A stretch of 64,000 nucleotides of DNA from an uncultured Acidimicrobiales bacterium (lineage in GTDB: Bacteria > Actinomycetota > Acidimicrobiia > Acidimicrobiales > SHLQ01). Below, piece by piece: positions 6,055-38,056 of the stretch (its first letter is position 1; the number at the start of each line of letters is the position of its first letter). The DNA lies in the NCBI GenBank assembly GCA_937922235.1, contig CAKZVC010000029.1, forward strand, positions 1 to 64,000, written 5' to 3'. The position numbers and the translations under genes were made by a program. The notes under the pieces were generated by a model. That model worked only from the letters and a program-made list of their open reading frames with translations, ran no database searches and had not been told where the DNA came from.

Positions 6055-6123
6055 GGGGTTTGACCCCTAGCAAGCTCGCTATCCCGCTGAGTGGGATACG
6101 CCGCCAAGAAGGGGTCAGACCCC
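6055..6123. repeat. Alternating 13-nt motif / 15-nt hairpin element
   Basis: Part of the 309-nt gap between two minus-strand genes. Two copies of the 13-nt palindrome (6055-6067, one variant base, and 6111-6123, exact GGGGTCAGACCCC) flank a 15-nt hairpin (6082-6096, TCCCGCT G AGTGGGA). The spacing is exactly 14 nt on each side. The same architecture recurs at 37.9 kb with a different 13-mer. It looks like a REP-type dispersed palindromic element. No transposase is adjacent. Confidence 0.75.
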
Positions 6124-6145
6124 AACTGGCGAGTTTCGAGCCCCT

Positions 6146-6250
6146 AGGCGAGAAACTCGGGTTCGACGATCCTCGTCAGAGGTGAGTCGATACAGCCCCC
6201 AGGCGAGAAACTCGAGTTCGACGATCCTCGTCAGAGGTGAGTCGATACGG
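6146..6250. repeat. 55-bp tandem duplication
   Basis: Two nearly identical 55-nt units (starting at 6146 and 6201, beginning AGGCGAGAAACTCG and ending GAGTCGATAC) sit directly downstream of the palindromic element. They abut the stop codon of the next minus-strand gene. The first unit also pairs with an upstream arm (CGAGTTTC at 6130-6137 against GAAACTCG at 6152-6159). No open reading frame of note covers it. Confidence 0.8.
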
Positions 6251-6772
6251 CTATTGGCCTAGCTGATCGCGCCAGTTGGCGCGGTAGCGGCTGGCGACCT
6301 GATCTGGGGTCTGCAACAGCACGTCGTTACTCACCATGTCGGCGATCGCACGACGCTCAAAGTAGTGGAACGAATAGTGCACCTCGGCGAAGGCTTCCTT
6401 GCGGAACTCGACCAGTTCGGCTGCGGGGTTTTCGTCGAGGAAGCCAAACAACATGTAGGCAATGCGGAGGTCGTGCACGACAGGTGCGCGGTGAAACAAT
6501 GATGCTCGCTTGGTTGCCACGCCAACACATCCAGAGTTGACATCGCCCTTGTACTCGCCGTCGGTGAGCTCGAGCTTGTTCTCGAACACCTTGACCAGCG
6601 TGAGAGCAAAGCCTTGGTCGGGTCCTTGAGCTCCAAGCCGGCCGCCGGACTGCACCGGAGCGCCAAACGTCTCGCCAGGGCGAGATGCCGACCACGCACC
6701 AGCTCGCTGAGGTGGCGAGGTGTAGTGCTTCGACGTGGTGGGCCCAGTTGGGACGAACTCAGGTGCTGCCAT
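6251..6772 (-). CDS. Conserved-looking hypothetical protein
   Basis: A 173-residue soluble protein that I cannot assign to a family. The N-terminal 50 residues are Pro/Gly/Ser-rich and probably disordered. The rest is a compact, mostly helical region with aromatic patches (AYMLFGFLDENPAAELVEF, VHYSFHYFERRAIADM). It is the last gene of a run with leuB and cimA (24 nt after cimA, same strand), so it is probably cotranscribed with them. No catalytic motif is evident, and the link to branched-chain metabolism is positional only. Confidence 0.65.
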   Translation of the reverse strand: MAAPEFVPTGPTTSKHYTSPPQRAGAWSASRPGETFGAPVQSGGRLGAQGPDQGFALTLVKVFENKLELTDGEYKGDVNSGCVGVATKRASLFHRAPVVHDLRIAYMLFGFLDENPAAELVEFRKEAFAEVHYSFHYFERRAIADMVSNDVLLQTPDQVASRYRANWRDQLGQ

Positions 6773-6796
6773 AGCGCAATCGTATCCGATCGGGTC

Positions 6797-8479
6797 TTAG
6801 GTCGGTGGGTGGAGGAATCCGTAGACGACCGAGTCGGCCAGCGCTTGCCAGCTCGCCTCGATGATGTTCTCGGAAACGCCCATGGTCGACCATGTCTCTT
6901 GACCGTTGGTGCTCTCGAGCAGGACTCGGGTGACTGCGCCGGTGCCGCGGCCGGTGTCGAGCACACGCACCTTGTAGTCGGTGAGGGTGATCTTTTCGAG
7001 CATGTCGGCGTAGTGCCGGCGCATGGCGTAGCGAAGTGCCGCGTCGAGCGCGTTGACCGGGCCGTTACCCTCACCGGTTGCGACGATGCGTTCGTCACCA
7101 ACCCAAATCTTGACCGTGGCTTCGGTTTCTACCTCGACTGCTTTGTCGGTCCAGGCACGGTTACCCGAGCCAGACCGGTGATCGAGGTTGACCCGGAACG
7201 ATTCGAGACGGAACCACTCCTGCTCAAATCCACTGGCGGCGCGCATGAGCAGTTCGAGCGACGCATCAGCAGCTTCGAAATGGTAGCCCTCGTATTCGAG
7301 CTTCTTGAGCGTCTCGGTGATGTCGCCGAGGACCTTGCCATCGACATCGATGCCGAGCGACTCGGCCTTCAGGGCCAGCGTCGAACGGCCAGCCATATCG
7401 GACACCAAGAATCGGGTGCCGTTGCCGACCGATTCAGGGTCGACGTGCTCGTAGGCGTCCGGGCGACGGGCGATCGCTGACGTGTGCAATCCAGCCTTGT
7501 GCGCAAAGGCCGTGGCACCGACATAGGGCTGCTGCGGGTCGGCTGCGAAGTTGACAAGGTCGGCGACGTTGTGCGCCACGCTCGTCAGGTTTTTGAGCTT
7601 GTCGTCGCCGATGGTCTCGACGCCCATCTTCAGGCTGAGGTTCGCAATGACCGGAACCAGGTCGCAGTTGCCGACCCGTTCGCCATAGCCGTTGATCGTC
7701 CCCTGCACCTGCGAGGCGCCGCCGCGCACGCCAGCCAACGCGTTTGCGACGCCGCAGCCAGTGTCGTTGTGCAGGTGCACACCGATGCCAGCCGTGCCGT
7801 TCGGGCCGCCGAGATGGTCGTAGACCTCCGACACCATGCGTTCGACGTCGACGGGCAACGAGCCACCATTCGTGTCGCACAGCACCAAGCAGTCAGCGCC
7901 GGCAACCGCGGCGGCTTCGAGCACCGCGAGGCTGAACTCGGGATTACGACGGTAGCCATCGAAGAAGTGCTCGGCGTCGAAGAAGACCTCACGTCCCTCA
8001 CCCTTTAGGAAGGCGATCGAATCCGAGACCATCGCAATGCCCTCATCGAGCGTTGTCTGGAGTGCCCCTTCGACGTGGTAGTCCCACGTCTTGCCGACGA
8101 TACAGACCGTTCCAGTCTCGGCGCTCAACAGGTTGGCAAGCGTCGGGTCGGTATCGGTCTTTCCCTTTGCCCGTCGGGTTGATCCGAAGGCGACCATCTT
8201 GGAGTTCTGCAGGTCGAGCTCGTTCCGGGCGCGCTCGAAGAACTCGATGTCCTTCGGGTTCGCTCCGGGCCAGCCGCCTTCGATGTAGGTGACGCCAAGG
8301 CGGTCGAGCTGGCGGGCGATCTTCAGTTTGTCTTCGACCGTCAGCGAGATGCCTTCGAGCTGGCTGCCGTCACGCAACGTCGTGTCATAAATCTCGACGC
8401 GGTCAGGCTGACGTTCGGTCCGGTCGATGCCCGACAGATCGCTTTGCACATCACTCATGGTCGACTTCTCCGTGCTCAT
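6797..8479 (-). CDS. cimA: (R)-citramalate synthase
   Basis: Condenses pyruvate with acetyl-CoA to citramalate, the first step of the threonine-independent route to 2-oxobutyrate and isoleucine. The 560-residue protein carries the HMGL-like TIM-barrel signature IYDTTLRDGSQLEG near residues 30-43, the second signature GIGVHLHNDTGCGVANA near 230-246, and a C-terminal LeuA-type regulatory domain (about residues 420-540). Sequence around the barrel start (GVTYIEGGWPGANPKD) is typical of the long CimA clade rather than LeuA. Its ATG overlaps the leuB stop by 4 nt (ATGA), implying translational coupling. LeuCD, needed in the same pathway, are encoded 37 kb away. An in-frame ATG seven codons in is an alternative start. 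Confidence 0.92.
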   Translation of the reverse strand: MSTEKSTMSDVQSDLSGIDRTERQPDRVEIYDTTLRDGSQLEGISLTVEDKLKIARQLDRLGVTYIEGGWPGANPKDIEFFERARNELDLQNSKMVAFGSTRRAKGKTDTDPTLANLLSAETGTVCIVGKTWDYHVEGALQTTLDEGIAMVSDSIAFLKGEGREVFFDAEHFFDGYRRNPEFSLAVLEAAAVAGADCLVLCDTNGGSLPVDVERMVSEVYDHLGGPNGTAGIGVHLHNDTGCGVANALAGVRGGASQVQGTINGYGERVGNCDLVPVIANLSLKMGVETIGDDKLKNLTSVAHNVADLVNFAADPQQPYVGATAFAHKAGLHTSAIARRPDAYEHVDPESVGNGTRFLVSDMAGRSTLALKAESLGIDVDGKVLGDITETLKKLEYEGYHFEAADASLELLMRAASGFEQEWFRLESFRVNLDHRSGSGNRAWTDKAVEVETEATVKIWVGDERIVATGEGNGPVNALDAALRYAMRRHYADMLEKITLTDYKVRVLDTGRGTGAVTRVLLESTNGQETWSTMGVSENIIEASWQALADSVVYGFLHPPT

Positions 8480-9447
8480 AGTGCGGCGATGACCTTGTCA
8501 CCCATCTCGACGGTCGTGCCGGTTTCGGCAGAGACCGCCTCGCAAGCGTTGCGGATGCGGGTTGCCGCGACGGTCTCACCCAGGTGCTCAAGCATCATCG
8601 CTCCCGAGAGAATTGCTGCGAGCGGGTTCGCGATGCCTTGGCCCGTGATGTCGGGAGCAGAACCGTGGACAGGCTCGAACATCGAGACGCCCTCGGGGTT
8701 GAGGTTCGCCGATGAAGCCAGGCCAACGCCACCAGAAACTGCGCCGCCGAGGTCGGTAAGGATGTCGCCGAACAGGTTGTCGGTAACAATGACGTCGTAG
8801 CGCTTTGGGTCTTCGACGAAGTAGATGCATGCGGCATCGACGTGGTTGTACGCCGTCTCGACGTTCGGGTAGTCGGCGGCCACCTCGTTGAAGGTGCGCT
8901 CCCAGAGATCGCCCGAGAACGTGAGCACGTTGGTCTTGTGCACGAGGGTCACGTGGTTGCGGCGCTTGGTCGCCTGTTCGAATGCGTAGCGACATGCCCG
9001 CTCGACGCCCATCCGGGTGTTGACCGAACCCTGAGTGGCGATCTCGTGCGGGGTGCCCTTACGAAGGAGACCGCCCTCACCGGCATAGGTGCCTTCGGTG
9101 TTCTCGCGAACAACGATGAATTCGTGCGAGCCATCGGGAGCGAGAAACGGGCGATGGTTGATGTAGAGGTCGAGCTCGAAACGCATGCGCAATAAGAGAC
9201 CTCGCTCGATCAGTCCGGGTGGAACGTCAGGCGTGCCAACAGCGCCGAGGTAAATTGCATCGAGCGCACGCCACTCGTCGAGGATCTCGTCGGTGAGCAC
9301 GACGCCATCTTTGAGGTAGCGCTGACCACCCAGGTCGTAGTCGACCGTGTCGAGCTCGACGCCAGCAGCCTCGATGACGCGCATTCCCTGAGCAATAACC
9401 TCAGGTCCAATCCCGTCGCCACCAACGATTCCGACTTTGTGTGCCAT
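8476..9447 (-). CDS. leuB: 3-isopropylmalate dehydrogenase
   Basis: An NAD-dependent oxidative decarboxylase that acts on 3-isopropylmalate (leucine) and, in the citramalate route, on 3-methylmalate (isoleucine). The 323-residue reading begins at ATG 9447, where the family start KVGIVGGDGIGPEVIAQG follows at once; the open frame extends 25 codons further without homology-like sequence. Key family segments are the substrate-binding LLRMRFELDLYINHRP, the lysine segment LVHKTNVL, and the signature DNLFGDILTDLGG. It is the first gene of leuB-cimA-hypothetical, which fits shared use of LeuB by both pathways. Confidence 0.93.
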   Translation of the reverse strand: MAHKVGIVGGDGIGPEVIAQGMRVIEAAGVELDTVDYDLGGQRYLKDGVVLTDEILDEWRALDAIYLGAVGTPDVPPGLIERGLLLRMRFELDLYINHRPFLAPDGSHEFIVVRENTEGTYAGEGGLLRKGTPHEIATQGSVNTRMGVERACRYAFEQATKRRNHVTLVHKTNVLTFSGDLWERTFNEVAADYPNVETAYNHVDAACIYFVEDPKRYDVIVTDNLFGDILTDLGGAVSGGVGLASSANLNPEGVSMFEPVHGSAPDITGQGIANPLAAILSGAMMLEHLGETVAATRIRNACEAVSAETGTTVEMGDKVIAAL

Positions 9448-9584
9448 TGCGTGTATTCCTCTGATTCCTATGCGGCGCGGACATTGCGCCCCGTCGAGTC
9501 TACGCGGAGCGCCAGGAACCACTAATCGGGCTGAATTCTGCTGAGTACAGATGCCCTCTCTGCTCCACCTCGTCCACGAATGGA

Positions 9585-10106
9585 CTAGCCGGCGAATACT
9601 CCAACGCCCGCAACACCTTCGAGGTCGGCAATGTCGGCCGTGAGACGGCCGGCATCTGACGGGTCGGCAAGGTCGACGAGAATCGACGCGTCGATGGCGA
9701 TCGCTCGAGCGTCGGGGACGAAGCCAAAGACCTCGCCTGTGGGGCTGAATGTCACACCGTTGACGTAGGGCAGGTCGTCGAGCCGTTCGAGGAGGGCGCT
9801 CGTCGGGCTCGACGGGTCGTCGTGAGTTCCCAGGTCTTCGAGCAGATACACCACGGCATCAGTCTCGACCGGAGGTTGTATGCCATTGCGCAGGTCGCCG
9901 TCTGAATCGAGGTCGTCGAGTTCGATGCTTGCTGGATCGACGTAGTTCTCCTCATCGTCCATGGACGACCCGGCAAAGGCGAACACGCCGAGGCCAATCG
10001 CTGCAACAGCTAGCCCTGCGCCAAGGATGGCGATGACCGGCTTGGATACGACAACCCCATGTTCGGGCTCGTGTTCCTGATCTTGGATCTCGTCTTGCAC
10101 CTGCAC
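9585..10106 (-). CDS. Hypothetical membrane protein with FtsX-like tail
   Basis: A 173-residue protein from GTG 10106, which is preceded by GGGAG at a good distance; a TTG four codons earlier is the longer option. After a 20-residue acidic N-terminus comes one membrane segment (VIAILGAGLAVAAIGLGVF). The outside part has a beta-alpha rhythm (DAVVYLLEDL, LDDLPYVNGVTFSPTGEVF, DIADLEGVAGVGVFAG) resembling the extracellular domain of FtsX-type proteins. That resemblance is by eye and weak. It shares the strand and spacing of the downstream leuB operon and the upstream SIMPL gene, but no functional link is evident. Confidence 0.6.
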   Translation of the reverse strand: MQVQDEIQDQEHEPEHGVVVSKPVIAILGAGLAVAAIGLGVFAFAGSSMDDEENYVDPASIELDDLDSDGDLRNGIQPPVETDAVVYLLEDLGTHDDPSSPTSALLERLDDLPYVNGVTFSPTGEVFGFVPDARAIAIDASILVDLADPSDAGRLTADIADLEGVAGVGVFAG

Positions 10107-10184
10107 CGTCTCTCCCAAGGTCCGCCGCCCGGCTCTCGTTACTACTACGAACGAACGCCTTCGGCGGTTCCCGCCGGCGACTTC

Positions 10185-10799
10185 TCAGAGCGCGTGATAC
10201 ACCATGGTGATGTTGGCGTACACCGACTGTTCCGACGGTTCGAGCGACTCGGCAGCAGCGCCACCTGCCGCAGCCAGGCCGCGCATCATCGGCGCAGACT
10301 GCACCGACCCACTCTCGATAATCTCCATCAGCTCGCCAAGCGTTAGCCCTGCCGCACGGGCGTAGCTCTCGGCCTTCATGCGGGCATCGTCGACGGCAAG
10401 TTTCCGAGCCTCCTCGTGGGCGGGATTGTCAGGACGGATGCGCCAGTTCGGTCCTTGGACAGAGACATGGTCGAGCAACGTGGCCTTCTCGAGTAGATCG
10501 AAGGCTGCAGTCGGGTCGCTGATCGTGCACGACACGGTTGCGTTGGCGTCCCAGCCATCGCGCACCTCGCGATCCTTTCGCCACAGGACTCTGGGGTGCA
10601 CGCGTGCACGCTCGACTCCTCGTTTATCTTCAGGAATGCCAATGTCGTCGAGCAACGCAACAAGCGATTTGGCGGCGTCGGTTGCCTGCGAAAGCGCAGC
10701 GTTTGCCTCGCTACCGCGTCCCTGGCATCCAAAGGTGAACGTTGCTTCATCGGGAGCACTCGTCGTGCGTCCCTGCCCGGTAACTCGAATCTCAGCCAT
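10185..10799 (-). CDS. SIMPL (DUF541) domain protein
   Basis: A 204-residue protein that is nearly all SIMPL/DUF541 domain. It starts IRVTGQGRTTSAPDEATFTFGC, shows the conserved GVERARVHPRVLW region, and ends with the family's SYARAAGLTLGELMEIIESG stretch before a terminal strand (VYANITMVYHAL). Relatives include eukaryotic IRAK1BP1 and bacterial periplasmic YggE, linked to oxidative-stress tolerance. No signal peptide is visible, so this copy looks cytoplasmic. Confidence 0.88.
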   Translation of the reverse strand: MAEIRVTGQGRTTSAPDEATFTFGCQGRGSEANAALSQATDAAKSLVALLDDIGIPEDKRGVERARVHPRVLWRKDREVRDGWDANATVSCTISDPTAAFDLLEKATLLDHVSVQGPNWRIRPDNPAHEEARKLAVDDARMKAESYARAAGLTLGELMEIIESGSVQSAPMMRGLAAAGGAAAESLEPSEQSVYANITMVYHAL

Positions 10800-10838
10800 A
10801 ACCGACGGTAGCTCGCCAGGGCTAGGAAGGTTGATCGG

Positions 10839-11444
10839 TTAGTTCGGATCGAAGTCCGTCTTGAGCTCCATCGAGTTGATGAGCTCGGGGAATAGCTCAA
10901 GGTTTGTGTCGGTAACAAGACCCCACATGAAGATGACGGTCGTGTCGGCATCGCGATCGGTGTCGAAGTCGACCACCGCGCTCATCGCTTGGAAACCATC
11001 ACGACGGTCCGACTCGTGAGTGAAGATGGTGGCCCGGTTAGGTCCATCGATCTCCTGGCGGTTGAGAATCGGCAACTCGCGACCCGAGGCACCCGTGTTC
11101 AGCAAACGGAGCGGCAGAAGGTCGGGCTCCTGTCCTTGCGATAGACCCATCTCCATAAACCCAACAAAGTCGTCGAAGCTGTTGCCACCGCTGCTCTTCC
11201 AGAGCTCACCGGCAATGACGGTCACGTCGGCTGCGCCATCGAGTTGGGTGACAAACCAGCACTGGTTCTCCGCCGGCGAGACATCGGCAGCGATGTAGTT
11301 GTCCGGCAGAACGAGTCCTTCGACACTCAGGCAGGGAGTGTCGAGCACGACGGTGTCGATGGCCAATGCCGCCGTAGAGGAGGACTGTGATCCGCACGCG
11401 GCGAGCACGAGGCAAAACGCAACAATGCTGACCACTCGACCCAT
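10839..11444 (-). CDS. Hypothetical lipoprotein
   Basis: A 201-residue predicted lipoprotein. The start at 11444 (MGRVVS) puts the signal peptide and lipobox (LVLAACGS, Cys near residue 18) in the usual place; the open frame runs seven codons further upstream. The mature part is a small mixed alpha/beta domain with several Cys residues (TPCLSVEGLVLPDN, ENQCWFVTQLDG) and no family I can name. It resembles the sensor-type lipoproteins common in actinobacteria. Confidence 0.65.
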   Translation of the reverse strand: MGRVVSIVAFCLVLAACGSQSSSTAALAIDTVVLDTPCLSVEGLVLPDNYIAADVSPAENQCWFVTQLDGAADVTVIAGELWKSSGGNSFDDFVGFMEMGLSQGQEPDLLPLRLLNTGASGRELPILNRQEIDGPNRATIFTHESDRRDGFQAMSAVVDFDTDRDADTTVIFMWGLVTDTNLELFPELINSMELKTDFDPN

Positions 11445-11543
11445 AGGAACCAGAGTGTCACCCAACGAGATCCGCTGCGTCTTCCGTTTGGCCTATGCGG
11501 CAATACGAGAATTTGAACACGAAACCTCTCCTACGCTGAAGTA

Positions 11544-12338
11544 ATGACGCCACGTTCGCTGTACATCCCGCATGGCGGCGGGCCGATGCCATTGCTCGGA
11601 GATCCGGGCCATGCCGAGCTCATCGCCTATCTGAAAGAAGTTGAACCGACGATTGGGCGACCGAAGTCGATCGTCGTCGTCAGCGCGCACTGGGAGGCGC
11701 CTAGCCCGACGGTTACTGCGAGTTCCGACCCTGGTCTCCTGTTCGACTACTACGGGTTTCCACCCGAGACGTATGAGTTCAGCTATCCGGCGCCAGGCTC
11801 GATTGAGCTCGTCGAGCGACTCGCTTCAGTCGCCGATGAGGCCGGCTTCGACCTACGACTTGACCACGAGCGCGGCTTCGACCATGGCATGTTCGTGCCG
11901 CTCATGCTCATGTACCCCGATGCCACTATCCCCGTCGTGCAGCTATCGCTCATCAGTGGGTTGGATCCCGTTCTCCACATCGAACTTGGGCGAGTGCTCA
12001 GACCACTAACCGACGATGGCGTGCTTGTTTTGGGTTCGGGGTTGAGCTTTCACAACATGGGCGAGTTCGGCCTAGGCGGTAGCGAGCTAGTCGACGAAGA
12101 GAACGAGGCATTCGACGCCTGGCTTGAACGGACGTGCACGAGTCATGAGCTCAGCGAAGCCGACCGTTCAGCATCGCTCGCGGCGTGGATCGATGCCCCC
12201 GGTGCCCGGTACAACCACCCACGGGAAGAGCACCTCCTGCCACTGCATGTCTGTTACGGCGTAGGCGGTGGCCTCGCGACCCGATCGTTCGATGGGCGCG
12301 TGCTGGGCAAGCGGGTCGCCGGATACCAGTGGGGCTAG
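11544..12338 (+). CDS. Class III extradiol (4,5-DOPA-type) dioxygenase
   Basis: A 264-residue LigB-superfamily ring-cleavage dioxygenase of the DODA/YgiD type. It starts SLYIPHGGGPMPLL, with the first metal-binding His, and has IVVVSAHWEAPSPTV with the second. It also has DHGMFVPLMLMYPDA, with the conserved HG pair, and ends near a His-containing EEHLLPLHVCYG. Family members hold Fe(II) or Zn(II) and open catecholic rings; the true substrate in bacteria is often unknown. The gene converges on and overlaps the next gene by 4 nt. Confidence 0.88.
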   Translation: MTPRSLYIPHGGGPMPLLGDPGHAELIAYLKEVEPTIGRPKSIVVVSAHWEAPSPTVTASSDPGLLFDYYGFPPETYEFSYPAPGSIELVERLASVADEAGFDLRLDHERGFDHGMFVPLMLMYPDATIPVVQLSLISGLDPVLHIELGRVLRPLTDDGVLVLGSGLSFHNMGEFGLGGSELVDEENEAFDAWLERTCTSHELSEADRSASLAAWIDAPGARYNHPREEHLLPLHVCYGVGGGLATRSFDGRVLGKRVAGYQWG

Positions 12339-13060: not shown

Positions 13061-13096
13061 GAGCTCACATCACGGATGACCGAGCGGGCCGGGTGA

Positions 13097-13957: not shown

Positions 13958-13966
13958 GTGCGCTCC

Positions 13967-14875: not shown

Positions 14876-14949
14876 AGTTCCCCTATTTCGTGGGGTCAGA
14901 CCCCGCTACCCAAGTGGGGTCAGACCCGATTCCGAACGATACGAGTGGT

Positions 14950-14982
14950 TTGACGAATGGTCAATCCAATGATTTATTGATC
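14950..14982 (+). promoter_or_regulatory. Putative promoter and LysR-type operator
   Basis: The divergent intergenic region is unusually AT-rich. A sigma-70-like pair TTGACG (14950-14955) and TTTATT (14973-14978) with a 17-nt spacer points to the LysR gene. Overlapping it is an inverted repeat GGTCAAT (14959-14965) / ATTGATC (14976-14982), a T-N11-A-like arrangement expected for a LysR-type site. This would suit autoregulation plus control of the divergent dehydrogenase-oxygenase pair. Confidence 0.45.
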
Positions 14983-15013
14983 TATCCATGCATTTTTTTA
15001 ATGGATCTGCCTA

Positions 15014-16159
15014 ATGGGGTCAGACCCCTCTGACGTGCCTGAAGGCGCCGAGTGGCCGCCGAGCTACATGTTCGAGCCCGGCGTCGACCCCAACGCGTTC
15101 ATTGTCGATGGTGTTCGAGGGGGCAAGAAACCAAGGAAAACAAAGGGCAAACGAAGGGCAAAGCGGAAGCCTGTGCACCGCACAACCTCTGCCTCATCGA
15201 AGGCCTCCACCGCAAAGAACCCGCCAGTGGGGTCTGACCCCGTGCGGAGCACAACGGGGTCTGACCCCATTCGTAGGGCGGGGTCTGACCCCACTGATCG
15301 GAACTTGCGGTACTTCGTCGCCGCCGTGCGAGCCGGGTCGTTTACGCATGCGGCGAAACACCTCGGTGTGGGGCAGCCGGCAGTATCGGTTTCGATTCGA
15401 GCGCTGGAACGCCAGCACGGCCTTGAGCTGGTGCGCCGGTCACGGACTGGCATTACGACGACCGCAAAGGGCCAGTTGCTCTTCGACGCCATAGCACCGG
15501 CTTTCGATCACATCGACCTGGCGGTGAAATCGCTCCAGCGTTCCGACGCTGGAACGGTCAGCCTCTCCGTCTCGACCTCTCTTGCGAGTTGGTGGCTCCT
15601 CCCGCGATTACCCGATTTCAAGCGGACGCACCCTGAGGTTTCGCTTCGACTCGTGACCGCAGACTCCGATGCCGGGGTCGACGCAAACGCCTTTGATCTT
15701 TGGGTTCCGCTCGGACGGATCGACGATGCACGCCTGCAGAGCACCGACCTCTGCCGAGAGGCATTGCTTCCGGTCGCATCGCCCGAGCTTGCCGCATCGA
15801 TCGGGTCTGACCCCAGTGCGTTGCTCACAGCGCCACTCCTTCATCTCGAAGAGCGGTACACGCCTCGGTTCGATTGGAAGCAGTGGTTCACCGCCAACGG
15901 AATCGACACACCAGGGTCATTGCCCGGCGACCGGTCGACGGACTACTCGCTTGTCGTTCAGGCCGCGCTCGACGGACAAGGCGTGGCGCTCGGCTGGGAA
16001 CACATTGTTCGCGACCTTGTCGACGATGGCCGTTTGGTCTCGCTCGGGGAGCCGATCGTGACGCAAAGCCCGTTTGTCGTCCTGAATCCGGCGAACCGAC
16101 CACTTTCGCCCGACGCGCTCGCCCTTCGGACATGGCTCATTGATCAACTGGCGGTCTGA
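15014..16159 (+). CDS. LysR-family regulator with repeat-derived N-terminal extension
   Basis: A 381-residue LysR-type transcription factor. The winged-helix domain begins only near residue 97 (LRYFVAAVRAGSFTHAAKHL, then GVGQPAVSVSIRALE) and the substrate-binding domain follows (about 180-375). Most LysR proteins begin within five residues of the helix-turn-helix. Here a 95-residue extension precedes it: a basic tract (KKPRKTKGKRRAKRKP) and three GSDP peptides encoded by the 13-nt palindromes. The apparent ATG itself overlaps a palindrome. GTG codons at 15228 and 15241 lie in frame and would shorten the extension to about 20 residues. Another palindrome encodes GSDP inside the effector domain (15802-15814). 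Length and start are therefore uncertain; the LysR identity is not. Confidence 0.82.
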   Translation: MGSDPSDVPEGAEWPPSYMFEPGVDPNAFIVDGVRGGKKPRKTKGKRRAKRKPVHRTTSASSKASTAKNPPVGSDPVRSTTGSDPIRRAGSDPTDRNLRYFVAAVRAGSFTHAAKHLGVGQPAVSVSIRALERQHGLELVRRSRTGITTTAKGQLLFDAIAPAFDHIDLAVKSLQRSDAGTVSLSVSTSLASWWLLPRLPDFKRTHPEVSLRLVTADSDAGVDANAFDLWVPLGRIDDARLQSTDLCREALLPVASPELAASIGSDPSALLTAPLLHLEERYTPRFDWKQWFTANGIDTPGSLPGDRSTDYSLVVQAALDGQGVALGWEHIVRDLVDDGRLVSLGEPIVTQSPFVVLNPANRPLSPDALALRTWLIDQLAV

Positions 16160-25170: not shown

Positions 25171-25179
25171 GGTGAGGCG

Positions 25180-28047: not shown

Positions 28048-28078
28048 CTCCTCCTTTTCGGCAGAACGCCGCAAAACA

Positions 28079-28195
28079 TTCGCCATCGGTACACTGCTGG
28101 CTGGTTGTGAACCGAAGTCCGGTGAGATCCCGGCACTGTCCCGCAACGGTGATGTTTCACTATGAAACGAGTCCGGTCGAGTTCACCGCCACAAA
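28079..28195 (+). promoter_or_regulatory. Cobalamin riboswitch
   Basis: The leader of btuF contains the B12-box core, AGTCCGGTGAGATCCCGGCA followed by CTGTCCCGCAACGGTGA (about 28111-28150). A closing segment GAGTCCGGTCGAGTTCACC (about 28170-28188) follows, and an upstream P1/P2-like arm lies near 28085-28108. This matches the adenosylcobalamin-riboswitch consensus in its short form. Downstream, CTCCT (28238-28242) can pair with AGGAG (28255-28259) of the btuF ribosome site, giving a plausible translational expression platform. Exact ends are estimated. Confidence 0.92.
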
Positions 28196-28265
28196 CACAC
28201 AACGAGACCCTCGAGGAAGGGGCTGGTCGTCACGGAACTCCTGTGCGATCGGCAAGGAGAAAACC

Positions 28266-29327: not shown

Positions 29328-29354
29328 TCACGACGCTGTAGCCACTAGGCCACC

Positions 29355-30389: not shown

Positions 30390-31834
30390 CCGTCACCGTT
30401 CGCAACATCGGGGTCGCCATAAAGGACGTCACCCTCCTCAACGATGTGTCGCTGCAGGTGTCGCCCGGTGAGTGGGTGTCGATCATCGGACCCAACGGGG
30501 CCGGAAAGTCGACCTTGCTACGAGTGCTCGCTGGTGTGCTCGACCACGCAGGCAGCGTCGAAATCAACGGCATCGACATCGGCGGGCTCTCGCCGCGAGA
30601 ACGCTCCAAGCTTGTCTCTTGGGTTCCGCAGAGCCCAACGATTCCCCAGGGCGTCAGCGTGCTCGACTACGTCCTTCTCGGCCGTACCCCGCACCTTCAT
30701 CCTCTCGCGGCACCGAAACAGAGCGACGTCGGCATCGCCGAACAGATGCTCGAAACCCTCGACCTCGTCGACTTCGCCGGACGGCGGGTCGACACCTTGT
30801 CCGGTGGCGAGCTCCAGCGGGTGGCGATTGGGCGAGCCCTCGTGCAAGAAGCGCCGATCGTGTTGCTCGACGAACCAACGTCGGCACTCGACCTCGGCCA
30901 TCAACAAGATGTACTGATGCTGCTCGACGAGCTCCGCAAGGACGGCGACCGAACGATCATCTCGACGATGCACGACCTGACCTTGGCCGGACACTTCGCT
31001 GACCGACTGCTCCTGCTGTCACAAGGCGAAGTGGCCGCAGTTGGTCCGGCAGCGAACGTCCTCACTGAGGCACATGTTGCCGAACACTATGGCGCCAAGG
31101 TCCTCATCCGAAACGTGCAGGGCACCGTCGTCGTGTCGCCACGAATCGCAACGCCTTCATCTTTTGAACTTCCCGAACACTTCAACCAGTCCGATCTCGA
31201 CATCGAAGCATCGGCTCCGTCCAACACACCATCAACGATCTCTACAGAGGAACTAGTCATGAGCGAAAACAGCACCGAACCACTCACCGAGAACCCAGCG
31301 CAAGACAAGAGTGGGCGAGCCAAGTCGCTGGTCCTCGTGAACACCGGCGATGGCAAGGGCAAGTCGAGCGCGGCGTTCGGCGTCATGGTCCGTGGCGTCG
31401 CCCGCGACTGGAACGTTGCCGTTGTGCAGTTCGTGAAGTCGGGCAAGTGGAACGTCGGCGAAGAGAAGGTCGGACGCCAGCTCGGGGTCAACTGGTTCAA
31501 CGAGGGTGACGGGTTCACGTGGAACTCAGAAGACCTCGAGAACGACAAAGCGATCGCACAAAAGGGATGGGACACCGCACGCGATCTCATCATGGCTGGC
31601 GACCACGAACTGGTGATCCTTGACGAGCTCACCTACCTGATCAACTGGGGCTGGATCGAGGCCGACCCGGTGTACGAGACCATCACCAACCGGCCTGAGC
31701 ACGTCAACATCGTCGTCACTGGTCGCGATGCTCCAGCCGAACTCATCGACGTTGCCGACACCGTCAGCGAGGTGGTGAAGGTGAAGCACGCCTTTGATGT
31801 TGGCATTCTGGCGAAGAAGGGGATCGACTACTAG
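30386..31834 (+). CDS. btuD-cobO: BtuD ATPase fused to CobO corrinoid adenosyltransferase
   Basis: One 482-codon open frame encodes two enzymes. Residues 1-255 are an ABC ATPase (Walker A GPNGAGKST near 35, signature LSGGELQR near 138, Walker B VLLDEPTSALDLG) that would power BtuC. After a Ser/Thr/Pro-rich linker, residues 310-482 are a CobO-type ATP:corrinoid adenosyltransferase (P-loop VNTGDGKGKSSAAFG, then VILDELTYLINWGW), which adds the adenosyl group to reduced corrinoids. An internal ATG at 31259 (residue 292) follows AGAGGA with a 7-nt gap, so CobO may also, or only, be made separately. There is no stop between the parts. Uptake and activation would then be physically linked. Confidence 0.9.
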   Translation: MTVTVRNIGVAIKDVTLLNDVSLQVSPGEWVSIIGPNGAGKSTLLRVLAGVLDHAGSVEINGIDIGGLSPRERSKLVSWVPQSPTIPQGVSVLDYVLLGRTPHLHPLAAPKQSDVGIAEQMLETLDLVDFAGRRVDTLSGGELQRVAIGRALVQEAPIVLLDEPTSALDLGHQQDVLMLLDELRKDGDRTIISTMHDLTLAGHFADRLLLLSQGEVAAVGPAANVLTEAHVAEHYGAKVLIRNVQGTVVVSPRIATPSSFELPEHFNQSDLDIEASAPSNTPSTISTEELVMSENSTEPLTENPAQDKSGRAKSLVLVNTGDGKGKSSAAFGVMVRGVARDWNVAVVQFVKSGKWNVGEEKVGRQLGVNWFNEGDGFTWNSEDLENDKAIAQKGWDTARDLIMAGDHELVILDELTYLINWGWIEADPVYETITNRPEHVNIVVTGRDAPAELIDVADTVSEVVKVKHAFDVGILAKKGIDY

Positions 31835-31836
31835 CC

Positions 31837-32382
31837 ATGAAGCTTGGTCGTGGTTGCACGTTGTTACTCGGTGGCGCTCGGAGCGGAAAGAGCGACCTTG
31901 CGGTCAAGCTTGGCCAGGCGTGGTCGGGCGACGTCATCCTTGCGGCCACCGCAGAAGCGGGCGACGACGACATGGCGGCACGTATTGCCCGCCATCAGGC
32001 CGAGCGTCCAAGCGACTGGGGGCTGATCGAGGCACCGTTGCTCAGCGCCCAGGAGGTTGTCGCCGTCGATCCAGGAGCGCTTCTGATCATCGACTGCATC
32101 ACCTTGCTCGTGTCGAACCTGCTGCACGCCGACAAGACCGAAGCGCAGATCGACGAACACGCGTCGATCCTCACGCATTCGCTGATCAGCCGACCCTCCC
32201 CCACGATCGTGATCTCGAATGAGGTTGGCCTCGGTGTACACCCAACGTCGGAGCTTGGCCGTCAGTACCGCGACGTGCTCGGCCGCTACAACCGACGTAT
32301 CGCCGATCGAGCGCAGACGTCGCTCTTTGTCGCCGCTGGTCAAGTGATGGAGCTGCAGAACCTCGAGACCAACTGGTCGTAG
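31837..32382 (+). CDS. cobU: Adenosylcobinamide kinase/guanylyltransferase
   Basis: A 181-residue bifunctional enzyme that phosphorylates adenosylcobinamide and transfers GMP to it, preparing the nucleotide-loop assembly. Walker A LLLGGARSGKSDLA lies at residues 9-22, the metal-binding LLIIDCITLLVSNLL near 85, and the family's VISNEVGLGVHPTSELGR near 130-147. It lies 2 nt after the btuD-cobO stop and closes the riboswitch-led operon. Confidence 0.95.
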   Translation: MKLGRGCTLLLGGARSGKSDLAVKLGQAWSGDVILAATAEAGDDDMAARIARHQAERPSDWGLIEAPLLSAQEVVAVDPGALLIIDCITLLVSNLLHADKTEAQIDEHASILTHSLISRPSPTIVISNEVGLGVHPTSELGRQYRDVLGRYNRRIADRAQTSLFVAAGQVMELQNLETNWS

Positions 32383-32385
32383 CGG

Positions 32386-33615
32386 TTAGGTCGCTGGCTG
32401 CTTGCGGGCAAGGCCGCGCTGCCACACGTGCGTGATCCGGTCGGCGTGACCCCACACGCTCCTGTCGTCGAGCGGGTTGGCATCGAGCGCAATCACATCG
32501 GCGTCGTATCCAGCACGAAGCTGACCGGACTTGGGCGCTTGCGGGCCAAGTGTCTCGGGCCCGTTGGCCGTTGCTGCTTCGATCGCTTGAAGGTCGGTCA
32601 TGCCCGCAGCGATGAGGTGTTCGATCTCGCGGGAGTTCTCGCCGTACATCTGGCCTGACACGAAGATGTCGCAGCCGGTGGCGATGCGCACACCCTTTTC
32701 GATGGCGATCGCCATGGCGTCCTTATGCGCAGCGCTAACCATCTTTCCCTTTTCCTGGGCGTACGGCTGAAGCATGTCGAGCTGACCCAACAGCGACTCG
32801 ACAACGAAACGGGTCGGGACGAACATGGCCCCTTGATCGACCATGATGTCGGCGGCTTCCTCATCGAGCCAGCTGCCGTGCTCGATCGTGTGGCACCCGG
32901 CGCGCAAGGCCGCCATGATTCCGGCCTTTCCGTGACAATGAGCAGCCACGATCCGTTCGGCGCGGGCCGCTTCCTCGACGATCGCCGACAGCTCCTCATC
33001 GGAGAACTGCTGATGCTGAGGATGGTCGACCTCAGACATCACCCCGCCCGAGGCACACACCTTGATGAGGCGGGCGTTCTTGCGGAGGTTGATGCGAACG
33101 GCTTTCAAGACCTCGGGCACACCGTCGCACAAGATGCTGAAGCCGAATCGGCAACCAATGTCGTGGACCACCTCGAGTGGGAGCTCGTGGATATCGGCAT
33201 GGCCACCAGTGGTCGACAGGATGCGGCCAGCCGCATACGTCCACGGCCCCCTAACTGAACCGTCCTCGATCGTCGGAGCGATCGACAGGCCCATGCCGCC
33301 AACTTCCCGAGCGCTGGTGATGCCGGCGTCGAGCATCAGCCCGATGTCGGCCACGCTACGAACAGCGCATGCGACTGGGTCAGACGAGCCGAGCGTTCCA
33401 AGGTTTGGGATCGGCATGCCCACAAAGTGCGAGTGACAATCCCATAGCCCGGGCATCACCGCTGGCACTTCGATCAGCTTGTCGTTGGCTTGGCGAGCGG
33501 GTGCGTTGGCGGTCGGCCCGGCGTAGTCGATCACGCCGTCGTGCATCACCACCGTGCCGTTCTCGATCGGCTCTCCACGACCTGGAATCAAAACGTTCGC
33601 GATGATGTGCTGCAT
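32386..33615 (-). CDS. Metal-dependent amidohydrolase
   Basis: A 409-residue amidohydrolase-superfamily enzyme. The first metal motif is GLWDCHSHFVGM, followed by HCHGKAGIMAAL, GCHTIEHGSWLDEEAAD, and the late ATGCDIFV segment with the metal-ligand Asp. It ends with the small beta-sandwich (GYDADVIALDANPLDD). It resembles imidazolonepropionase-like or prolidase-like hydrolases. Its stop faces cobU across 3 nt. It interrupts the two cob units on the opposite strand, and a role in B12 metabolism is not indicated. Confidence 0.88.
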   Translation of the reverse strand: MQHIIANVLIPGRGEPIENGTVVMHDGVIDYAGPTANAPARQANDKLIEVPAVMPGLWDCHSHFVGMPIPNLGTLGSSDPVACAVRSVADIGLMLDAGITSAREVGGMGLSIAPTIEDGSVRGPWTYAAGRILSTTGGHADIHELPLEVVHDIGCRFGFSILCDGVPEVLKAVRINLRKNARLIKVCASGGVMSEVDHPQHQQFSDEELSAIVEEAARAERIVAAHCHGKAGIMAALRAGCHTIEHGSWLDEEAADIMVDQGAMFVPTRFVVESLLGQLDMLQPYAQEKGKMVSAAHKDAMAIAIEKGVRIATGCDIFVSGQMYGENSREIEHLIAAGMTDLQAIEAATANGPETLGPQAPKSGQLRAGYDADVIALDANPLDDRSVWGHADRITHVWQRGLARKQPAT

Positions 33616-33708
33616 GCGTCCCCCTCAGAACTGATAACTCAACGCTACTTCGCGCCCCCATAGGATCACATCACGCAGCGAACGGCCGATAGGTCGCGAT
33701 CTGGAACC

Positions 33709-34527
33709 ATGAAAGGTCCAACTATGTGGCACGCCCCTCGCCCACGCTTCTCGACTCGTACTGCGCTGCTCTGCGCCGCTCTTGCGTTCACGCTGCTGGC
33801 AACTGCATGCAGTGGTTCTGATTCGACGACCGCTTCGGAGTCCGACACACCCGCGGCAACGACGGCCGCCGACTCCTCCGACGTCAGCACCGAAGGCTCC
33901 GAGTCGTCCGATAGTGATGACGTGGGGGAAGGCGCTACCCCGACAAACGAAGCAGCGACCTCTGGGCTCGCTCCTGACACAGAATCCGACCCTGACGCCC
34001 CGGACGCCGAGCCCGACGAGACGATCGATGCCGACAGCGACGACGCGAATGACACGTCGAGCGAGAGTGGCGACACGACTGATGCACCCCAACCGGTCGA
34101 GCCAGATCCGATTGGTGGCGACCCCCGTGACGCACTCGCCCAGATCTTGCCGCTCTTCGGCATCACCGATACGGACGCAGCAATCGAATGCATCGAGCGC
34201 GAGGCTGAGAAGGACGGGATTCCGCTCGACAAGGTGACCGCCGGTGCCGGTAACGCCATGATGATCGCCGCAGTTCGATGCGACCCCAACGCGATGCGTG
34301 AAGGCTTTTCACAGTCGTTCGCCGAGATCGACACGAGCCAAATGGCCTCCACACCAGCGCAACTCGATTGTGGTCTCGAGACGCTCTTTGGATGGTTTCA
34401 AACCGTGCCGCTCACCGAGGCCGACGCAGTCTTTGAAGGTGACGCCCCACAAGAGGTCCTCGACCTCCTCGTCGACACGTGCGATATGAGCGAGTCGGAC
34501 GCCGACTTCTTCCTGAACGACGCCTAA
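33709..34527 (+). CDS. Acidic hypothetical lipoprotein before cobT
   Basis: A 272-residue lipoprotein (lipobox FTLLATACSG, Cys near residue 29). An Asp/Ser/Thr/Glu-rich disordered region follows (about 35-130). The folded C-terminal domain of about 130 residues has paired Cys residues and two repeated units (DAAIECIEREAEKDG and a similar DCGLETLFGWF region). No family recognised. It is only 18 nt upstream of cobT on the same strand and so is probably cotranscribed with cobT-cobS. I see no riboswitch in its 93-nt leader. Confidence 0.7.
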   Translation: MKGPTMWHAPRPRFSTRTALLCAALAFTLLATACSGSDSTTASESDTPAATTAADSSDVSTEGSESSDSDDVGEGATPTNEAATSGLAPDTESDPDAPDAEPDETIDADSDDANDTSSESGDTTDAPQPVEPDPIGGDPRDALAQILPLFGITDTDAAIECIEREAEKDGIPLDKVTAGAGNAMMIAAVRCDPNAMREGFSQSFAEIDTSQMASTPAQLDCGLETLFGWFQTVPLTEADAVFEGDAPQEVLDLLVDTCDMSESDADFFLNDA

Positions 34528-34545
34528 ATCTCTAGGGCAAGTAGT

Positions 34546-35553
34546 GTGCCCCGAGTGGATTTGTTACTACGCGAAGAATTCGCCGCAGCCCCCCGAGCTG
34601 ATGCCGATTCAGGCGCCGCTGTGCGAGCTCGAATCGATGACATCCTTCGCCCTGGTGGCGCTATGGCGCGCCTCGACGAAGTTGCTGTCTGGCTCGCGAG
34701 TTGGCAGCGGACACGGACTCCTAAGGTCACCAAACCAACAGCTGTGATCTTTGCTGCTGACCATGGGGTCGTTGCCGAAGGTGTAAGCGCGTACCCCGCC
34801 GAGGTCACTGGGGCCATGCTGGCCGCGTTCGAGGCCTCTAAGGCCAGCGTGTCTGCCCTTGCCGAGGTCGCAGGAGCCTCCGTGCTCGCCGTCGATGTTG
34901 GGGTCGGTCAGCCAACGAACAACCTTCGAGTCGAACCAGCGCTCAGCCCCGAGCGGTTCGCTGAGTGCTTCCAGATCGGCCGCTCAACGGTCGCCTCGCT
35001 CGATACCGACTTGCTGATCGTTGGCGAAATGGGCATCGGTAACACCACTGCAGCGGCCGCGGTCTCCGCCGCGATCCTCGGTACCGATGCAACCCCCTTC
35101 GTGGGGCGAGGCACCGGCGTGTCCGACGATTCGTTGAAGCTGAAGGCCGAAGTCGTCGCCGATGCCGTTGCGCGCATCTCCGACGTGACCGACCCGCTCG
35201 AGATAGTGCGAGAGGTCGGCGGCGCCGAGCTTGTCGCGATAGCCGGTGCCCTGTTCGAGGCCCGCATGCGATCGATCCCGGTGCTGCTCGACGGCTACAT
35301 CGCCACGTCCCCAGCGCTCGTCCTCCATGCGATCGACCCCGAGCTCATCGCGAACTGCTGGGCCGGCCATGAGTCAGCCGAGCCCGGTCACCGTCTGGTT
35401 CTTGCTCACCTCGACCGACGTCCGCTACTCACGCTCGACATGCGACTTGGCGAAGCGTCGGGTGCAATGGCGGCGGTGCCGTTGGTGAAGATGGCCTGCG
35501 CCCTTGTCACGGACGTTCCGACATTCACCGAGTGGTTCGGACCAGATGCCTAG
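34546..35553 (+). CDS. cobT: Nicotinate-nucleotide-DMB phosphoribosyltransferase
   Basis: A 335-residue enzyme that makes alpha-ribazole phosphate from dimethylbenzimidazole and nicotinate mononucleotide, building the lower ligand of B12. Family segments include AVIFAADHGVVAEGVSAYP, VGEMGIGNTTAAAAV, GRGTGVSDDSL, and the C-terminal LDMRLGEASGAMAAVPLV with the catalytic Glu. It starts at GTG 34546. Its stop is overlapped by the cobS ATG (8 nt). Confidence 0.95.
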   Translation: MPRVDLLLREEFAAAPRADADSGAAVRARIDDILRPGGAMARLDEVAVWLASWQRTRTPKVTKPTAVIFAADHGVVAEGVSAYPAEVTGAMLAAFEASKASVSALAEVAGASVLAVDVGVGQPTNNLRVEPALSPERFAECFQIGRSTVASLDTDLLIVGEMGIGNTTAAAAVSAAILGTDATPFVGRGTGVSDDSLKLKAEVVADAVARISDVTDPLEIVREVGGAELVAIAGALFEARMRSIPVLLDGYIATSPALVLHAIDPELIANCWAGHESAEPGHRLVLAHLDRRPLLTLDMRLGEASGAMAAVPLVKMACALVTDVPTFTEWFGPDA

Positions 35554-36292
35554 CTTTCTGCATTCGCTTTGGGTTGCCGTTGGCTTCCTCACGCGAATTC
35601 CCGTCGGCGACGTCACCCGGGGTGGCCGCTCCGAGGTCGACATGACCAAGGCCGTTCCATGGTTCCCGGTTGTCGGCATCGCCATTGGAGCGATCGTCGG
35701 CGGTACATACGTCTTGGCTGACGAGTTGCTCAACGTTCGAGTAGCAAGCCTGCTGGCGGTCGGCCTCGGGCTCTTGATCACCGGGGCCTTCCATCATGAC
35801 GGCCTCGCCGATATCGCCGACGCTTTCGGTGGCGGGTGGACCGTCGAACGACGACTGGAGATTCTCAAAGACTCACGGCTCGGCACCTATGGAACTGCGG
35901 CGCTATGTGTTGCGATCGTTGGTGAAGTTCTTGCGATATCCGAGCTCAAAGGCGCGCCTGCCATCGGCGCGATCATCGTGGCCCACTCCCTGGGCCGGGC
36001 CATGGCACTCGCGGCGATGCTGCTAGCTCGAAGCGCCGGCGAGGGCATGGGATCCGACTACATGCAGCAGCTCTCGCCGCTCGCCGTCACCTCCGGAATT
36101 CTCGCTGGAATCGTCGCAACGTTCGTCTGGTCGCCGATCTTCGCGCTCGCAACGATCGGCGTAGCCGCCGTCCCAACGATCGCCATCGTTGCTTTGGCGA
36201 ACCGAAAGATCGGCGGCATCAACGGCGACGTTCTCGGGGCGATCACCGTGGTCAGCGGCCTCGCCACCCTCATCATCAGCGGAGCGACCTGA
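35546..36292 (+). CDS. cobS: Adenosylcobinamide-GDP ribazoletransferase
   Basis: A 248-residue integral membrane enzyme that joins adenosylcobinamide-GDP and alpha-ribazole to finish B12. Hallmarks are VGFLTRIPVGDV at the start, the metal-binding HHDGLADIADAFGG, and RLGTYGTAALC further on, among six to seven hydrophobic helices. The open frame extends 42 nt upstream, but ATG 35546 gives the family N-terminus and overlaps the cobT stop. Confidence 0.95.
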   Translation: MPSFLHSLWVAVGFLTRIPVGDVTRGGRSEVDMTKAVPWFPVVGIAIGAIVGGTYVLADELLNVRVASLLAVGLGLLITGAFHHDGLADIADAFGGGWTVERRLEILKDSRLGTYGTAALCVAIVGEVLAISELKGAPAIGAIIVAHSLGRAMALAAMLLARSAGEGMGSDYMQQLSPLAVTSGILAGIVATFVWSPIFALATIGVAAVPTIAIVALANRKIGGINGDVLGAITVVSGLATLIISGAT

Positions 36293-36381
36293 CCGCCTTC
36301 GCATCGAAAGCTGCGCTGCGGTAACTTCCTTCTACGTTCGGTGGGGGCCGAGCGTGTGGCTAAATCAAGGGGGATACCACC

Positions 36382-37917
36382 GTGAAAGTGGCGTTGACGA
36401 TAAACGATTTTCTGGACCGGGCCGTTGCGGTCTATCCGGAGCGAGTGGCGATCGTCGACGAACCCGACCAACCCGCAACTCCAATGAAGACCATCACCTA
36501 CGGCGAGCTCGGCGATATCCGCCGCCAGATGGGTGTCGCCATGGACAAGATGGGGATCGGCATGGGTGAGCGTGTGGCGATGGTGTCGCACAACTCGGCC
36601 CGTCTGCTCACCTCGTTCTACGGAGTAAGCGGGAACGGGCGAGTATTCGTGCCGATCAACTTCCGTTTGAGTGCCGATGAAGTGAAGTACATCGTCGAAC
36701 ACTGCGGCGCAACGGCGTTGCTGGTCGACCCCGAGCTCGCAGACGCGCTCGCCGACGTCGAGTGCGAACGCAAGTGGATCCTCGGTGAAGAGTCCGACGC
36801 CGCGTGGCTCGGTCACGAGGGCACGCCCGAGCCATGGGAACCCGACGAAGATGCAACCGCGTCGATTAACTACACCTCGGGCACGACCGCCCGCCCCAAG
36901 GGCGTCGAGCAAACCCACCGTGCCCGCTGGACAAACGCGGTCACCTTCGGCTGGCATGCGGCGGTTACCGACCGAGACGTCTACCTCCACACGCTCCCGA
37001 TGTTCCATTGCGATGGTTGGGGCATGCTCTACACCGTGACCGGCATGGGCGTAAAGCACGTGGTGCTCCGCAAGGTCGATGGCGCCGAGATCCTCCGCCG
37101 AATCGACGAGCATGGGGTCACCCTTATGTGTGGCGCTCCAGCTGTGGTAGCCGCGGTACTCGACGCGGCCAAAGACTGGGACGGCGAGATCCCAGGGTCA
37201 GGAACGGTGCGAATCGTGGTTGCTGGTGCGCCACCGCCCACGGCGACGATCGAGCGAGTCGAAACCGAGCTGGGATGGGAGTTCATTCAGCTCTACGGAC
37301 TGACTGAAACTGCACCGCTGCTCACCTTTAATCGCTGCCGTCCGGAGTGGGACGAGCTCACGCCAGCCGAGCGAGCCAAGAAGCTCAGTCGTCAGGGTGT
37401 CCCGACGATCGGCGTCGAGATGAAGGTGTCGCAATCGGGCGAATTCCTAGCTCGTAGCAACAACGTGTTGAAGAGTTATTGGGACAATCCTGACGCTAGT
37501 GCTCAGGCGTTGGAGGGCGGATGGTTCCACACCGGCGATGGTGGCGTCATGGACGACGAGGGCTACTACTCGATTCTCGATCGCAAGAAGGACGTCATCA
37601 TCTCGGGCGGCGAGAATGTCAGCTCGATCGAGGTCGAGGACTGCGTGTTCAGCCATCCTGACGTGACCGAGGTTGCCGTAATTGGCGTGCCACACGAGAA
37701 GTGGGGCGAGACCGTCAAGGCGCTTGTCGTGCTCGGTGAGGGAGCAACGTCAACCGAGCAGGACATCATCGACTACTGCCGCGAGAAGATGGCCCACTAC
37801 AAGTGCCCGACGTCGGTCGAGTTCCGCAACGAACTCGCCCGCACGGCCACTGGCAAGCTCCAGAAGTTCAAACTTCGCGAGCCCTACTGGGCCCACATGG
37901 ACAAAGCCGTCAACTAA
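36382..37917 (+). CDS. Fatty-acid/acyl-CoA synthetase
   Basis: A 511-residue AMP-forming CoA ligase of the ANL superfamily. The P-loop motif YTSGTTARPKGVEQ lies near residue 170, QLYGLTETAPLLTFN near 310, and the hinge region with GWFHTGDGGVMDDEG and DRKKDVIISGGENVSS near 385-415. The adenylating lysine is in RTATGKLQKFKLR at the end. Chain-length preference cannot be told. GTG 36382 is the assumed start. It is followed by an intergenic repeat element and an enoyl-CoA hydratase gene, which suggests lipid or acyl catabolism. Confidence 0.93.
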   Translation: MKVALTINDFLDRAVAVYPERVAIVDEPDQPATPMKTITYGELGDIRRQMGVAMDKMGIGMGERVAMVSHNSARLLTSFYGVSGNGRVFVPINFRLSADEVKYIVEHCGATALLVDPELADALADVECERKWILGEESDAAWLGHEGTPEPWEPDEDATASINYTSGTTARPKGVEQTHRARWTNAVTFGWHAAVTDRDVYLHTLPMFHCDGWGMLYTVTGMGVKHVVLRKVDGAEILRRIDEHGVTLMCGAPAVVAAVLDAAKDWDGEIPGSGTVRIVVAGAPPPTATIERVETELGWEFIQLYGLTETAPLLTFNRCRPEWDELTPAERAKKLSRQGVPTIGVEMKVSQSGEFLARSNNVLKSYWDNPDASAQALEGGWFHTGDGGVMDDEGYYSILDRKKDVIISGGENVSSIEVEDCVFSHPDVTEVAVIGVPHEKWGETVKALVVLGEGATSTEQDIIDYCREKMAHYKCPTSVEFRNELARTATGKLQKFKLREPYWAHMDKAVN

Positions 37918-37933
37918 CCACTCGACCACTCCA

Positions 37934-38056
37934 TCCCGCTCAGCGGAACGCAAACGCCGTTTGGTGCCAGGTACAAAACACGCACCTCATTCCGCTCAGC
38001 GGAACGCGAACCCCATTTGGTGCCAGGTACAAAATGGCGGTTTGGTGCCAGGCACC
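37934..38056. repeat. 56-nt tandem hairpin / GGTGCCAGG element
   Basis: In a 177-nt gap, a 15-nt hairpin (37934-37948, then 37990-38004, TTCCGCT C AGCGGAA) alternates with a 13-nt motif (37963-37975, 38019-38031, GGTGCCAGGTACA). The spacing is exactly 14 nt at every step and the period is 56 nt. A third 13-mer, the perfect palindrome GGTGCCAGGCACC, follows at 38044-38056. The layout matches the element at 6.05-6.12 kb although the 13-mer differs. Confidence 0.85.

Follow-up and report, generated by a model that had tools for sequence, protein, structure and literature searches.

Repetitive extragenic palindromic (REP) sequences are usually regarded as one palindrome that occurs in pairs. In contrast, two loci (W1 and W2) in a 64,000-nucleotide (nt) stretch from an uncultured Acidimicrobiales bacterium (contig CAKZVC010000029.1 of assembly GCA_937922235.1, positions 1 to 64,000, hereafter the window) carry one dyad of another kind, 15 nt long with the core CCRCTSAGYGG and named H, at a constant distance from 13-nt palindromes of several REP types, with the spacer letters free. 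This distance is held across loci and species, and we give an even chance to the reading that these loci contain a non-autonomous REP-type composite element carrying H as an operator-like dyad. In REP doublets forming hairpins (REPINs) and bacterial interspersed mosaic elements (BIMEs), which go with REP-associated tyrosine transposases (RAYTs), non-autonomous, Y1-linked palindrome pairs stand at a set distance and mosaics of different palindromes occur, such as y with z1 or z2 in E. coli (available parts of PMC2817692, PMC6006769 and PMC8266576). As far as those parts go, the element described here shares with them the paired palindromes, the set distance, the Y1 link and the mosaics; it differs in that the classical GTAG/GTGG tag is absent from the hairpin foot (seen in 3 of 137 REP units, the reversed tag in 5) and in that H is the REP of no Y1 gene seen. 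TIRtrons and their TIRYT genes (TIR, terminal inverted repeat; TIRYT, TIR-associated tyrosine transposase) encode Y1 HUH transposases flanked by inverted repeats, some of them GGGGWSAS, which are found elsewhere as dimers or clusters (Di Nocera et al. 2013, PMC3733652, available parts). GGGGTCAG (W1) and GGGGACAG fit this pattern, whereas GGTGCCAG (W2) and the GGTGCC and GGTACC families do not. Already published in the same parts of PMC3733652 are structured spacers in REP dimers, in the form of small stem-loops, degenerate REPs joined to unrelated stem-loops, and hybrid dimers, which make up ~10% of the dimers in Stenotrophomonas maltophilia. A constant 14-nt distance to one dyad across REP types was not found in those parts, and the open-access literature yielded no earlier report of these 13-mers nor of REP work in Acidimicrobiia.

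Direct reading of the sequence bore out the alternation of hairpin and 13-mer that the original prediction had noticed at both loci, together with its 14-nt gap in five hairpin-to-13-mer intervals and its period of 56 nt (Table 1). The order at W1 is REP-14-H-14-REP, the two 13-mers differing from each other at two positions, and at W2 it is H-14-REP-14-H-14-REP-12-REP, the tandem units being 88% identical over 52 nt. The 13-mers themselves had been described less exactly: the hairpin does alternate with them, but at W2 the alternating ones are imperfect palindromes (GGTGCCAGGTACA), and the perfect GGTGCCAGGCACC does not alternate with the hairpin and lies 12 nt after its neighbouring 13-mer. 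The pattern CCGCTNAGYGG has 5 matches (3 sites) in the window against 0.50 expected, a number reached in 0 of 100 shuffles. The sole match of the window to Rfam at gathering score is a tRNA (68-140), with none for the two loci.

In the source genome (4.4 Mb, 118 contigs, 87.5% complete), YCCGCTNAGYGGRA, the 14-mer form of H, is matched 9 times at 7 sites, all of them in composites, against 0 for the reversed control. Counted at up to one mismatch, with the addition of the copy at 37990, which has two, H is present 7 times at four loci (C12, C27, W1 and W2), every copy lying beside a REP, and the H-REP gap is 14 nt in 11 of 12 cases and 13 nt in one. Since the matches to the H core in the window, to the 13-mers and to YCCGCTNAGYGGRA in the whole genome exceed those of shuffled or reversed controls, a chance origin was rejected. 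The idea that H is a common motif of this genome was likewise discarded: at up to two mismatches there are 35 sites per strand against 26 in the control, and the 28 two-mismatch sites outside composites, whose REP context was not checked site by site, are at background level. The repeating unit is 67 nt long, H-14-REP-12-REP, and outside it similarity is near chance. W1 and W2 are derivative arrangements, the latter shared by C27, and C12 has a mixed form; over the unit, W2 and C27 are identical at 50 of 67 positions. Also in this genome, a palindrome resembling H and encoding VPLCGKS lies 14 nt from a GGGGTCAGACCCC in a coding region (C3:2227, L001); this 15-mer was treated as a coincidence, part of a coding motif, and not as a further composite.

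We searched 197 relatives with a covariance model of H-14-REP; it matched 29 of their loci, of which 18 were read. Strong matches came from the source genome and G009, and among the weaker ones that were read the same arrangement appears at two loci each in G007 and G010, so the unit recurs in three congeners. In the source genome, the 36-nt matches to the model that were read are REP-12-REP pairs, not units with H. One further copy in the source genome, at C64:74241, is decayed, its H matching at 12 of 15 positions; it sits where the relatives have orthologous copies, ahead of an IclR-family gene (domains HTH_IclR and IclR_C). The locus faces an Rv2466c-like gene in the source genome, G009 and G010; in G007 that side falls outside the stretch read. 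The existence of copies beyond the window, on which the original prediction hung, is thus established by C12, C27, the decayed C64 and three congeners. The 14-nt spacing is kept in 17 of the 18 H-REP gaps examined in the genus, the exception being 13 nt; these gaps come from four species, G007 and G010 contributing orthologous pairs that are not independent. Beyond the 12 gaps of the source genome counted above, it is 14 nt in 6 of 6 (C64, G009, and two each in G007 and G010).

The promoter of this iclR gene has the same order in the four species, REP-12-REP-14-H-15-H''-iclR, where H'' is a second H-like dyad. Its REPs are GGTGCCAGGCCCC and GGGGCCAGGCCCC in the source genome, GGTGCCAGGTACC and GGTACCAGGTACC in G009, and GGTACCAGGTACC and GGTACCTGGTACC in G007 and G010, that is, three REP combinations at one locus with a constant H-REP gap. 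The swapped module that had been proposed for the window loci gains support here, where REP type differs and the gap does not: REP modules are shown, at one orthologous locus, to switch type by paired changes with H and the gap unchanged. Both G007 (L199) and G010 (L196) possess a Y1 gene with GGTACCTGGTACC on its flanks, which is also the REP type of the units there. Within these two genomes, the iclR copy and the copy at gmc are identical at 55 of 67 (G007) and 54 of 67 positions (G010), with flanks agreeing at 9 to 12 of 40; H agrees at 14 of 15 positions, the 14-nt spacer at 7 and the 12-nt spacer at 7 or 8. A worldwide scan for H-16N-REP returned four stretches, of which only L142 fits (uncultured Acidimicrobiales, same element as in G009); the other three, without REP context by eye, were rejected, and no match was found in viral contigs.

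Over nine units, identity between loci is 87% for H, 74% for the REPs and 35% for the 14-nt spacers, against 25% when shuffled; the length of the spacer is conserved and its letters drift. In 13 distinct aligned rows, 9 cells are double-changed, where shuffles give 2.9 (0 of 500); the covariation score is 0.179 against 0.096 (0 of 500). Three of the four double-changed pairs fall in a REP. Pair 2-14 of H is unpaired in 5 of the 13 rows. At W1 and C12 a REP-REP stem can form around H, of 14 bp and 16 bp, respectively; the fold z of the two W1 strands is -7.1 and -4.8 (RNA) or -5.1 and -3.6 (DNA), and that of C12 is -4.6 and -6.1. Such a fold around H was not seen at W2 (z -2.4 to -2.9).

The 13-mers belong to the REP/TIR repeats of Y1 transposases, because their palindrome families flank Y1_Tnp genes, as had been guessed when transposase genes of the REP-associated type were suggested. 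In the source genome GGKGYCAGRCMCC is matched 116 times (the first 100 being listed) and its reversed pattern 5 times; for GGTGCCAGGTAC there are 35 matches, with none for its control. Six of the seven Y1_Tnp genes of this genome carry palindromes of the same family on both sides, namely GGTGCC palindromes at L031, GGTGCC plus GGTACC forms at L033, GGGGTC or GGGTC palindromes at L032 and L034, ATTAGGGACTGTCCCTAAT at L036 and GGGGACAGTCCCC at L037; no palindromes were found on the flanks of L035. The genus yielded 44 Y1 genes in 11 genomes; of the 34 loci examined, 21 have one palindrome core on both sides. Neighbouring GGTGCC/GGGGCC units within 30 nt of each other are spaced by 12 nt in 19 of 22 cases in the stretches read.

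Some other repeats were noticed. GGGGACAGGCCCC occurs four times at 50823-50983 of the window, twice inside CATAAA/TTTATG; since the same form adjoins the Y1 gene L037 at C114, these copies are probably a repeat of the L037 transposase. Two pairs that are reverse complements of each other, GGGGCCTGACCCC-12-GGGGTCAGGCCCC at C47:119782 and C49:20401, look intermediate between REP families, and in another genus of the family (G013) L170 is a tandem array of GGTGCCAGGTACC units ~25 nt apart. At the Y1 genes of two congeners (L207 816-884 and L218 1287-1355), long GGGGTCAGACCCC palindromes lie 56 nt apart with nothing H-like between them, a spacing that is probably a coincidence.

H behaves otherwise than the 13-mers. 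The flanks of the Y1 gene repeat it in 0 of the 34 loci examined, and only single cores were seen near such genes, an exact one at L201, more than 1 kb from the gene, and one-mismatch cores at four loci (L215, L216, L219 and L035). Sites of the H type TTCCRCTSAGYGGAA without REPs were found at seven places in five other genomes of the order (two each in G034 and G037, one each in G076, G116 and G173), all seven upstream of genes. They were taken from the covariance-model matches, a count that is no census, and composition alone would give ~0.02 per 4 Mb, i.e. ~4 in 197 genomes. No 13-mer at up to one mismatch was found around them within the loci read. Two of the sites stand before operons that have an arylmalonate-decarboxylase-like gene in common (67% identical): in G034 one site lies upstream of this gene, and in G037 one lies upstream of a CoA-transferase III gene, after which the homologue comes next. 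Three genomes that belong to one genus have the site between the same two divergent genes, resembling by eye those for formate-tetrahydrofolate ligase and an FAD dehydrogenase; a second dyad, CTGTTC..GAACAG, was observed beside it in the three genomes (L179, L189 and L192). Exact TCCC..GGGA forms in five other genomes (L066-L070) were set aside, having no adjacent REP by eye and in some cases resembling terminators or coding sequence.

Regulators of the IclR family have dyad operators that lie immediately upstream of their own gene and of genes for catabolism. H resembles these operators in its position and differs in being joined to REPs in this genus. Of the properties expected from an operator, a dyad at the regulator's own promoter is found before iclR in four species, where two H-like dyads are present, and recurrence upstream of genes independently of REPs is found at the seven sites in five genomes, whose placement would fit what an operator looks like. 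Because H has no transposase of its own in the loci examined and recurs without REPs upstream of genes in other genera, it is, judging from sequence, more probably a dyad with a regulatory role than a further hairpin of the REP kind. Next to the REP-free sites no IclR gene was noted, and nothing usable was found in the literature on IclR with TTCCGC/GCGGAA.

The copies are lineage-specific. W2 is absent between fadD and echA in the four relatives, out of four, that keep these genes adjacent (G001, G010, G006 and G008); another gene precedes echA in G009, G005 and G003, and G002 gives a partial match. W1 is absent in G009, where gltX follows directly, and no H or REP at up to one mismatch was found at the equivalent locus in the seven relatives' loci read. 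Within the source genome, the flanking genes are codirectional at W1 and W2, divergent at C12 and convergent at C27. Adjoining W1, a 55-nt sequence with a terminator-like stem is present twice in tandem (6139-6248, 96%), and a single related stem is found there in G009.

If these loci hold a non-autonomous composite with an operator-like dyad, its unit would be H, 14 nt, a REP/TIR palindrome, 12 nt and a second REP/TIR palindrome, 67 nt in all. The REP parts are repeats of resident Y1 HUH transposases of the RAYT/TIRYT type; these enzymes would, most likely, act on the unit as folded single-stranded DNA and copy or move it. H would be a regulatory dyad, probably bound by a dimeric regulator of the IclR type or a similar one, and its attachment to the REP pair at a constant distance would predate the divergence of these species. 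The 14-nt distance would matter, and the exchange of REP modules by paired changes, H and the gap staying, is the one seen at the iclR locus. Two questions follow from such an arrangement: do REP transposases gauge how far away a second site lies, and are regulatory sites brought to new genes by REP-type repeats? It appears doubtful, if conceivable, that an operator was captured at 14 nt by a transposase-dependent palindrome pair and spread as a 67-nt cassette to new promoters, its palindrome ends being exchanged to suit the host transposase, and so acts as a minimal mobile operator that rewires regulation.

Several observations weigh against the composite element. The genes on either side of C27 converge, and an operator would be unusual there; the source genome, besides, is without any REP-free H at up to one mismatch. 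Both observations also speak against a mobile operator. Presence or absence alone was seen, with no transposition event and no clean empty site or insertion edge, and one H-REP gap is 13 nt. The iclR copy of the source genome matches W2 at just 36 of 67 positions and C27 at 40 of 67, and 26 of the 67 positions of the unit are REP letters, common anyway. No excess over shuffles is seen in the number of double-changed pairs (4 against 2.3, 59 of 500) or in that of additional pair types (6 against 6.2, 397 of 500). The W1 copy, with its GGGGTC REPs, could be an independent assembly, and the incompleteness of the genome (87.5%) counts here as well.

The traffic might have run in reverse, with H representing resident operators and REPs inserting repeatedly at a fixed distance favoured by the transposase or by single-stranded structure. 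REP-free H-type sites upstream of genes in five other genomes and the low identity of the spacers between loci would suit this, but we hold it to be unlikely, as the spacers of the two loci in G007 and G010 agree above the level of unrelated sequences, no REP-free H is known from the source genome, and W1, W2 and C12 carry REPs on both sides of an H. It also seems improbable that no constraint exists and that the loci are what drift has left of old clusters, copied by recombination, with fixed gaps that only reflect shared descent. The 88% identity of the W2 tandem units and spacers that share slightly more than chance point that way; against them stands one gap length in 17 of 18 cases and four species, although the spacer letters are nearly randomised.

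The role of H could alternatively be structural alone: as the apical hairpin of the REP element, it would assist the two REPs in folding into a single arm. The REP-REP stems around H at W1 and C12, with their negative fold z, are in line with this proposal, as is the A.C mismatch in H, which is a tolerated G.T on the strand opposite to the aligned one. The missing REP-REP fold at W2, the unpaired 2-14 pair and the H-type sites that stand upstream of genes without REPs make it quite unlikely. Very unlikely, finally, is a reading of the loci as hybrid BIMEs, in which H would be the REP belonging to a third Y1 transposase that the incomplete assembly lacks. Hybrid dimers do reach ~10% in S. maltophilia (available parts of PMC3733652) and the genome is 87.5% complete, yet H is repeated on the flanks of none of the 34 Y1 loci examined, where just the single exact core of L201 and the four one-mismatch cores were seen.

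Table 1. Dyads and palindromes of the two window loci (positions in the window)
Feature	Position	Strand
W1: 13-nt REP/TIR palindrome, GGGGTC family (GGGGTTTGACCCC)	6055-6067	
W1: 15-nt dyad H (TCCCGCTGAGTGGGA), both neighbours at 14 nt	6082-6096	
W1: 13-nt REP/TIR palindrome (GGGGTCAGACCCC), type as on the flanks of Y1_Tnp genes L032 and L034	6111-6123	
W2: 15-nt dyad H, copy 1 (TCCCGCTCAGCGGAA)	37934-37948	
W2: 13-nt REP, GGTGCC family (GGTGCCAGGTACA)	37963-37975	+
W2: complete 67-nt unit H-14-REP-12-REP	37990-38056	+
W2: 15-nt dyad H, copy 2 (TTCCGCTCAGCGGAA)	37990-38004	
W2: 13-nt REP (GGTGCCAGGTACA)	38019-38031	+
W2: 13-nt REP (GGTGCCAGGCACC), 12 nt past the preceding REP; type as on the flanks of Y1_Tnp gene L031	38044-38056	

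Elsewhere in the window, an open reading frame at 15014-16159 (+ strand), LysR regulator-like by eye, contains several in-frame GGGGTCTGACCCC palindromes, which correspond to a repeated GSDP near the N terminus.

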